This document shows, piece after piece, positions 6,301-29,654 of a DNA stretch of 41,975 nt (position 1 is the first letter of the stretch; each line of letters starts with the position of its first letter). Under the pieces are notes generated by a model, which did no database searches, was not told where the DNA came from, and saw nothing but the letters and a program-made list of their open reading frames with translations. Origin of the DNA: Desulfobacteraceae bacterium (GTDB taxonomy: Bacteria > Desulfobacterota > Desulfobacteria > Desulfobacterales > JAABTS01); NCBI GenBank assembly GCA_011389735.1, contig JAABTS010000031.1, positions 1-41,975 of the forward strand, in the 5' to 3' direction. The position numbers and the translations under genes are program-made.

Positions 6301-6408
6301 TATAGCCTTTCAGATATTGAATTTCAGTGCGTTATCGGTCGGAGATATACAACTTGTATTATCCCCTCCCTCTATCCTTCTGAAATGTAATATCTGAAAA
6401 CCCATATA
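6301..6408. repeat. Family-A palindromic repeat, copy A1 (reverse orientation)
   Basis: Outer arms TATAGCCTTTCAG and CTGAAAACCCATATA enclose a shorter inner arm pair with CAGTGCGTTATCGG on the left. It is degenerate relative to the best copies, especially in the right arm. It lies in the divergent gap between the phosphoesterase and the phosphatase-fold gene; a short palindromic remnant of the same arms is at about 6195-6232. Confidence 0.7.
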
Positions 6409-16090: not shown

Positions 16091-16300
16091 TATAGCCTTT
16101 CAGGCATCCTTCATCTGTCACATCTGTCAGTTTACACTTTGAAATCGGGATCGCTATCGAGAGCGAATTGTTTCGATCCCGATAGCGATCCCGATCCCGA
16201 TCCCGACTTGGAAAGTGTCAACCACTTTCCTGGGTTTATGAAGGACGCCGCCTTTCAGATATTGAAATTCACGAAGCGGCGGGCCGGAGGTTACATTGTT
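16091..16300. repeat. Family-A copy A6, split by a family-D element
   Basis: The left tip TATAGCCTTTCAG (16091-16103) is family A and is interrupted by the family-D element at 16103-16249. Family-A sequence then restarts with a duplicated GCCTTTCA and continues ATATTGAAATTCACGAAGCG to GGCGGGCCGGAGG. The right half of the palindrome is missing or degraded. Confidence 0.75.
16103..16249. mobile_element. MITE-like element (family D) with 8-bp target duplication
   Basis: The ends are GGCATCCTTCAT (left) and ATGAAGGACGCC (right), inverted repeats with one mismatch. Both flanks read GCCTTTCA (16095-16102 and 16250-16257), a perfect 8-bp direct repeat that looks like a target-site duplication inside a family-A repeat. 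The interior is a long inverted repeat: GTTTACACTTT followed by GATCGG-type hexamers, pairing with GATCCC hexamers followed by AAAGTGTCAAC. It has no coding capacity, so it would have been moved by a transposase encoded elsewhere. A related copy is at 29520-29654. Confidence 0.8.
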
Positions 16301-16338
16301 CAAACACTCATTCGGGGTCGTGATCATAAATGAAAACG

Positions 16339-16372
16339 ATCCCGATCCCGATCCCGATCCCGATCCCGATTA
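16339..16372. repeat. GATCCC hexamer tandem array
   Basis: Five and a half uninterrupted copies of the hexamer CGATCC. The same hexamer builds the stem of the family-D elements at 16103 and 29520. It may be a truncated family-D remnant just downstream of the TetR gene. The remainder of the 406-bp gap between the mutase and TetR genes holds no gene. Confidence 0.7.
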
Positions 16373-18938: not shown

Positions 18939-19047
18939 TTATAGCTTTTCAGGAATTAAATTACACAAGGCGGCGGTCCCGGGATAATACTATTCGTATA
19001 TCCCGGGCCGGCGACACAGTGAAATTTGATTTCTGAAAACCTGTATA
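18939..19047. repeat. Family-A palindromic repeat, copy A9 (best full copy)
   Basis: A complete forward copy: TTATAGCTTTTCAGGAATTA, ACACAAGGCGGC, CCCGGGAT, loop AATACTATTCGTAT, ATCCCGGG, CCGGCGACACAGTG, then AAATTTGATTTCTGAAAACC and TGTATA. The arms pair along nearly all their length. It lies between the J-domain gene and the GGDEF gene, both on the minus strand. Confidence 0.9.
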
Positions 19048-29519: not shown

Positions 29520-29654
29520 GGCATCCTTTATTTCTTGTTTACAGTTTCATCAAAATCGGGATCGGGATCGGGATCGTAATAATTCGATACCGATCCCGAT
29601 TTCGATACCGATTTGGAAAGTGTAAACTGTTTATCAGCATTTATGAAAGACGCC
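29520..29654. mobile_element. MITE-like element (family D), second copy
   Basis: Ends GGCATCCTTTAT and ATGAAAGACGCC are inverted, and match the ends of the element at 16103-16249. The flanks CAAACCAG (29512-29519) and CAAAACAG (29655-29662) agree at 7 of 8 positions, consistent with an aged 8-bp target duplication. The interior has repeated GATCGG hexamers pairing with GATCCC-type hexamers, then TTGGAAAGTGTAAACTG as in the first copy. It lies between the FAD dehydrogenase gene and the TPP-enzyme gene. Confidence 0.78.

Follow-up and report, generated by a model that had tools for sequence, protein, structure and literature searches.

Target duplications of 8 bp are produced by ISs of the IS1595, ISL3, IS66, IS1 and IS6 families, and of 8-9 bp by IS256. 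Among short elements, the hupL MITE of Candidatus Thiomargarita nelsonii is bounded by 10-bp direct repeats and a 19-bp inverted repeat and gave hits on 260 of 439 contigs, and its authors found no likely parent in ISfinder (PMC4853749). The element studied here lies on a contig of a Desulfobacteraceae bacterium (JAABTS010000031.1, assembly GCA_011389735.1), in a stretch of 41,975 nucleotides analysed as a whole and hereafter called the window. It resembles the hupL MITE in being short, with inverted ends, direct-repeat flanks and many copies, but differs in its 8-bp duplication, in asymmetric ends that recur in 26 genera and in a probable parent found in another genome (PMC4853749).

The short elements of this type, which form two subfamilies (D1 and D2), are very probably MITEs of an apparently unnamed IS group, moved in trans by the DDE-type transposase of that IS.

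Structure of the window element and its copies in the host genome

The D1 element of the window interrupts an arm of another repeat, family A. Its features, together with an uninterrupted arm and a second element in the window, are as follows.

6301..6325, +, uninterrupted family-A arm with a single GCCTTTCA, a paralogous empty site
16091..16272, +, family-A arm TATAGCCTTTCAGATATTGAAATTCAC, split by the D1 element
16095..16102, +, left copy of the 8-bp target duplication, GCCTTTCA, identical to the right copy at 8/8 positions
16103..16249, +, MITE of subfamily D1, 147 bp including a 9-bp tandem duplication
16103..16114, +, left tip GGCATCCTTCAT; the tip on the 1,923-bp IS (L368) is identical
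16112..16129, +, CATCTGTCA in two tandem units (16112-16120 and 16121-16129)
16130..16139, +, left inner box GTTTACACTT, a putative transposase binding site
16146..16159, +, left hexamer arm (CGGGATCGCTATCG), its unit number differing among copies
16174..16205, +, right hexamer arm (GATCCC/GATAGC units), its unit number differing among copies
16213..16222, -, right inner box GTTGACACTT, 27 bp off the right tip
16238..16249, -, right tip GGCGTCCTTCAT (forward-strand letters ATGAAGGACGCC)
16250..16257, +, right copy of the target duplication, GCCTTTCA
29520..29654, +, second related element, subfamily D2, 135 bp, with flanks CAAACCAG and CAAAACAG (7/8)

The original prediction described a 147-bp segment flanked by a perfect 8-bp duplication, with ends forming inverted repeats and a large hexamer stem inside, and each part was recovered: GCCTTTCA stands at 16095-16102 and 16250-16257, 11 of the 12 tip bases are complementary, and the single strand folds as DNA into a long central stem (-38.3 kcal/mol, z -7.9, with 0 of 200 shuffles equally low). 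It had further placed family A before D in time. The joined flanks of the window element read as a family-A arm and the intact arm at 6301 has GCCTTTCA once, so that this order of events holds and the empty site with a single octamer exists, as a paralogous arm within the window. Another family-A copy, at 18940-19045, has TATAG-type inverted arms on both sides and looks like a separate MITE family.

The second CATCTGTCA unit sets the window copy apart. Among the best blast matches in its own genome (at least 168 bits), 38 of the 39 others begin at query base 27 or later, mostly exactly at 27, because the second unit begins there, and aligned copies starting at that base carry a single CATCTGTCA after the tip. 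Without the tandem duplication the plain length would be 138 bp; with it, the left inner box lies 27 bp from the tip instead of about 18, which copies the spacing of the right end. The element is 98% identical to three other copies over 129 bp, and its insertion may be recent, as had been proposed, this identity and the perfect duplication being the two features that speak for it.

The ends recur in the host genome (6.5 Mb, 477 contigs) far above chance. The tip pattern (up to 2 mismatches), in which both subfamilies are mixed, gave 187 matches compared with 2 for a reversed control, the D1 right end gave 90 compared with 0, and the D2 left end gave 98 compared with 0. These counts correspond to about 190 elements or remnants in the two subfamilies. 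Lengths ranged from 88 to 174 bp among 70 distinct tip pairs, plus one nested copy of 264 bp, and strong hairpin folds were found in the elements. The nested copy (L021, 1096-1359, duplication TTTCCGGA) is D2-like and, by eye, holds a further insert of about 130 bp. Both window elements are short (147 and 135 bp) and have no transposase inside. Overall, the family combines short length, inverted repeats, a constant 8-bp duplication and many dispersed copies, and the window element is a MITE, one of roughly 190 non-coding copies in the genome.

Target sites, ends and interiors across the order

Duplications were scored by pairing each left tip with the nearest right tip within 400 bp, regardless of the flanks and counting a tip only if an inner box followed; the paired loci comprise the first listed copies plus chosen stretches, a subset of the copies of each genome. 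The flanks of 126 of the 164 resulting pairs matched at 7-8 of 8 positions (90 at 8/8, one at 9/9), and the 38 pairs with no duplication were retained in all pair counts. The host genome contributed 70 distinct pairs (55 at 7-8/8, 40 of them perfect, one equal over 9 bp, and 15 below 7/8) and other genomes 94 (71 at 7-8/8, 50 of them perfect, none equal over 9 bp). Random re-pairing of flanks yielded about 1.4 such matches in the 70 host pairs (mean 1.36, maximum 4) and a mean of 0.98 in a smaller set of 49 pairs from other genomes. Duplications thus flank other copies too.

Read from the end of the shorter box spacing (the 18-type end), the duplicated octamers are rich in A and T: position 2 is A, and positions 6 and 7 are T, in at least half of the 55 host elements and likewise of the 71 others. 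Eleven of the 57 host elements whose flanks agree in 6 or more of 8 bases sit in family-A arms, as recognized by a loose pattern of up to 6 substitutions (13 hits, two elements being counted on both strands); the same pattern covers only 635 of the 41,975 window bases. One family-A arm segment was targeted by the window copy and by those at L008 and L021.

Inner boxes (matches to GTTTACACTT with up to 2 mismatches) lie 17-18 bp from one tip and 26-28 bp from the other in 156 of the 164 pairs. The window copy is an exception in having both boxes at 27 bp, the one such 27/27 pair found.

Of 389 genomes in the order, 49 had the 28-bp left end (up to 3 mismatches), as did 26 of 150 genera, with 0 control-pattern matches among the matches listed, and all listed relatives came from other families of the order. 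Perfect 8-bp duplications were observed in G006, G034, G040, G048, G114, G129, G143, G165, G176, G218, G237, G269, G298 and G362 and in one contig of a named Desulfobacterales MAG. A scan of a contig collection with one end variant, in a set that possibly leaves out the host genome, returned 2 contigs, both of one Desulfobacterales MAG. The three end patterns had 0 matches in viral contigs, and blastn of the window element gave E values of at least 2 for all six phage records and of at least 0.03 for the best 20 of 28 plasmid records.

Interiors vary far more than ends. In the 42 D1 copies parsed by pattern, the left arm measures 8+6n bp in all 42 and the right arm 20+6n bp in 39, and the two lengths vary independently, from 8/62 to 56/26 bp. 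Interiors also differ by lineage, with hexamer arrays here, GTGTCAG-type arrays in G176 and G237, AACAATTTTGCAAATTGTT hairpins in G006 and additional palindromic interiors in other genomes. A GATCCC array at 16337-16370 lies outside any D element, perhaps within the same family-A repeat, and so hexamer arrays are not limited to D elements. Inside L203 there is a GTCATTGCGAG...CTCGCAATGAC palindrome, and inside L202 a comparable inverted pair; on visual inspection, both resemble resident REP-type repeats that became enclosed by D ends. In G034, a 674-bp segment (L183, 2268-2941) has D-type ends and the duplication CAAAAATG, with no ORF of at least 50 aa wholly inside.

A full-length element with the same ends

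The original prediction had also pointed to a transposase acting in trans and proposed looking for a full IS that shares these ends. Stretches of up to about 4 kb (less where the contig ends) were read inward from 60 further ends, and one IS-length pair was found, at 247-2169 of L368 in the related, single-contig genome G114. This element measures 1,923 bp, has 18/27 ends and a perfect 8-bp duplication, AATTTCTC, on either side, and carries one long intact ORF (397-1998, 533 aa). As the short copies share their ends with this full-length element of a related genome, an enzyme of its kind probably mobilized them; together with the 8-bp duplications at other copies, the element supports action in trans. 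The tips, the asymmetric 18/27 inner boxes and the 8-bp target duplication are common to this element and to the short elements of many genera.

Two further genomes carry relatives of the gene. In L422, an 18-type end is followed by a homologue of the L368 protein (44% identical over 158 aa) that runs up to the contig end. In L397, a 529-bp element with no duplication, a 41-aa match (46%) to the first residues of the protein comes first, then a hairpin, then the right end. All three genomes have the 18-type end on the upstream side of the gene. L368 is the only intact IS-length copy with a duplication that was found: three more left ends in G114 (L367, L370, L372) lacked a homologue as well as any right end within about 3.6 kb, and the host-genome loci examined, a set smaller than the genome, contained no homologue of the L368 transposase. 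Viral contigs yielded no confirmed transposase relative and phages no transposase match. Two plasmid proteins labelled hypothetical, from Acaryochloris (WP_012167171.1) and Burkholderia latens (WP_209822859.1), are 23-26% identical to the L368 protein over the aligned parts; both share its DEIF and D-x2-H motifs, and WP_012167171.1 also has SSLVE-NS. Literature searches listed no paper that pointed to these ends or to this transposase. A separate lead in G131, where contig ends cut off all seven identical copies so that 122-141 bp are visible and a 33-codon open frame lies near the tip, was dropped because an open frame so short is expected by chance; the frame matched no Pfam or NCBIfam family, and outside G131 had only weak matches (E of at least 0.011).

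No Pfam or NCBIfam model passed for the L368 protein, PHROG gave no match at E up to 10, and solved structures matched only at E of at least 0.041. For IS256 it scored 12.3 bits with the Pfam model (cut-off 21) and 12.9 with the NCBIfam model (cut-off 150), so that it is not a member by either. A profile comparison with hhalign, made with alignments of 6 and 2 sequences, the 2 being IS256 proteins, matched residues 98-246 to IS256/Mutator (probability 86%, E 4.8e-6), compared with a probability of 0.3% for IS1634. The protein has DEIF at 164, the D of VTAD at 178, VSDEG at 216, DTYH at 239 and SSSLVE at 450, motifs arranged as in DDE enzymes, for which catalytic roles are putative. It shares with IS256/Mutator the 8-bp duplication and D, D-x2-H and E-like motifs in similar order, and, judging from the remote match, may be a distant relative of those transposases despite falling under both cut-offs.

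Alignment of 13 MITEs from other genomes with the IS confined similarity to the ends: each of the 13 aligns with at least bases 1-28 of the IS, and 10 align with 35-40 bp at its right end, where L192, L201 and L202 align over only 12-19 bp. The other matches were short (best 27 bp at 85%, E 0.012). The MITEs would then be non-autonomous derivatives in which about 29 bp survive from the left end of the IS and at most some 40 bp from its right end, and the DDE-type transposase of that IS would move them in trans. The enzyme may bind tips and inner boxes, cut at GGC and make target cuts staggered by 8 bp where the DNA is AT-rich; a preference for family-A arms may arise from their supply of such sequence. 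The interior, whether hairpin or hexamers, could be replaceable filler acquired on loss of the IS interior, L397 may be a 529-bp derivative in which the gene start persists ahead of a hairpin, and hexamer number may subsequently have been altered by slippage.

The chances seem evenly balanced that the 1,923-bp element is the founding member of an IS family not yet described, placed on a remote Mutator/IS256 branch. Its left and right ends would differ in function, with inner boxes about one helical turn apart, and its MITEs would repeatedly repackage between those ends the palindromes or tandem arrays of each lineage. If so, the copy in the window, whose boxes both stand at 27 bp, would be a naturally occurring mutant in end spacing. 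Testable predictions of how the enzyme distinguishes the ends and how MITEs gain interiors follow from the strict 18/27 asymmetry, from the orientation of the AT-rich target and from the fact that interiors can be interchanged. The result would be an order-wide set of orphan MITEs tied to a transposase that the searched family models miss, and automatic annotation would therefore leave both unlabelled.

Other possible sources of the short elements

It is unlikely that a better-known family duplicating 8 bp (IS1595, IS256, ISL3, IS66, IS1 or IS6) made the MITEs and that the L368 gene is a passenger. The duplication length would suit these families, including IS1595-type ISs and their MITEs, and MITE-like ends could in principle enclose a passenger gene. 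However, the models PF12762 (IS1595) and PF00872 (IS256) had 0 matches in the host genome, on which ground both transposases were set aside as parents, and PF12762 did not match the L368 protein at E up to 10. Moreover, the L368 gene, or its start, lies just inside the same ends in two more genomes, and its product combines DDE-like motifs with the remote IS256 profile match.

The strong hairpins and the several palindromic interiors in other genomes would also suit fold-back repeats that multiplied through recombination or along a single-strand (REP/RAYT-like) pathway with no DDE transposase, but the exact 8-bp duplications and the conserved asymmetric ends make this highly improbable; Y1 enzymes are not known to duplicate their targets.

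Parentage by IS1634-type (DUF4277) elements, raised by a matching end about 100 bp from an IS1634-type reading frame in G155 and by IS1634 profile matches in 42 of the 49 end-bearing genomes (32 over the cut-off), is barely credible and was dropped, as an intact relative in G341 (three near-identical copies) has other ends (CTGACCTTTCGC and CTTGGGTTTCGC) and 6-bp duplications, the IS1634 end in G155 starts within D-type sequence, so that one had inserted into the other, and the only IS-length pair near the scanned IS1634 loci (997 bp in L282, degraded tips, 7/8) looks like chance. In G155, the IS1634-type element lies in or beside the D-type end at about 1420-1472 of L243. A DUF4277 element on a Nostoc carneum plasmid (L310, 1700-4316) has 85-nt inverted arms with GTGTAATACA-type motifs, and this relative was set aside, its arms being unlike the tips here. 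The three IS1634-type copies of G341 (L361-L363), with their 6-bp duplications, are identical over at least 1,858 bp.
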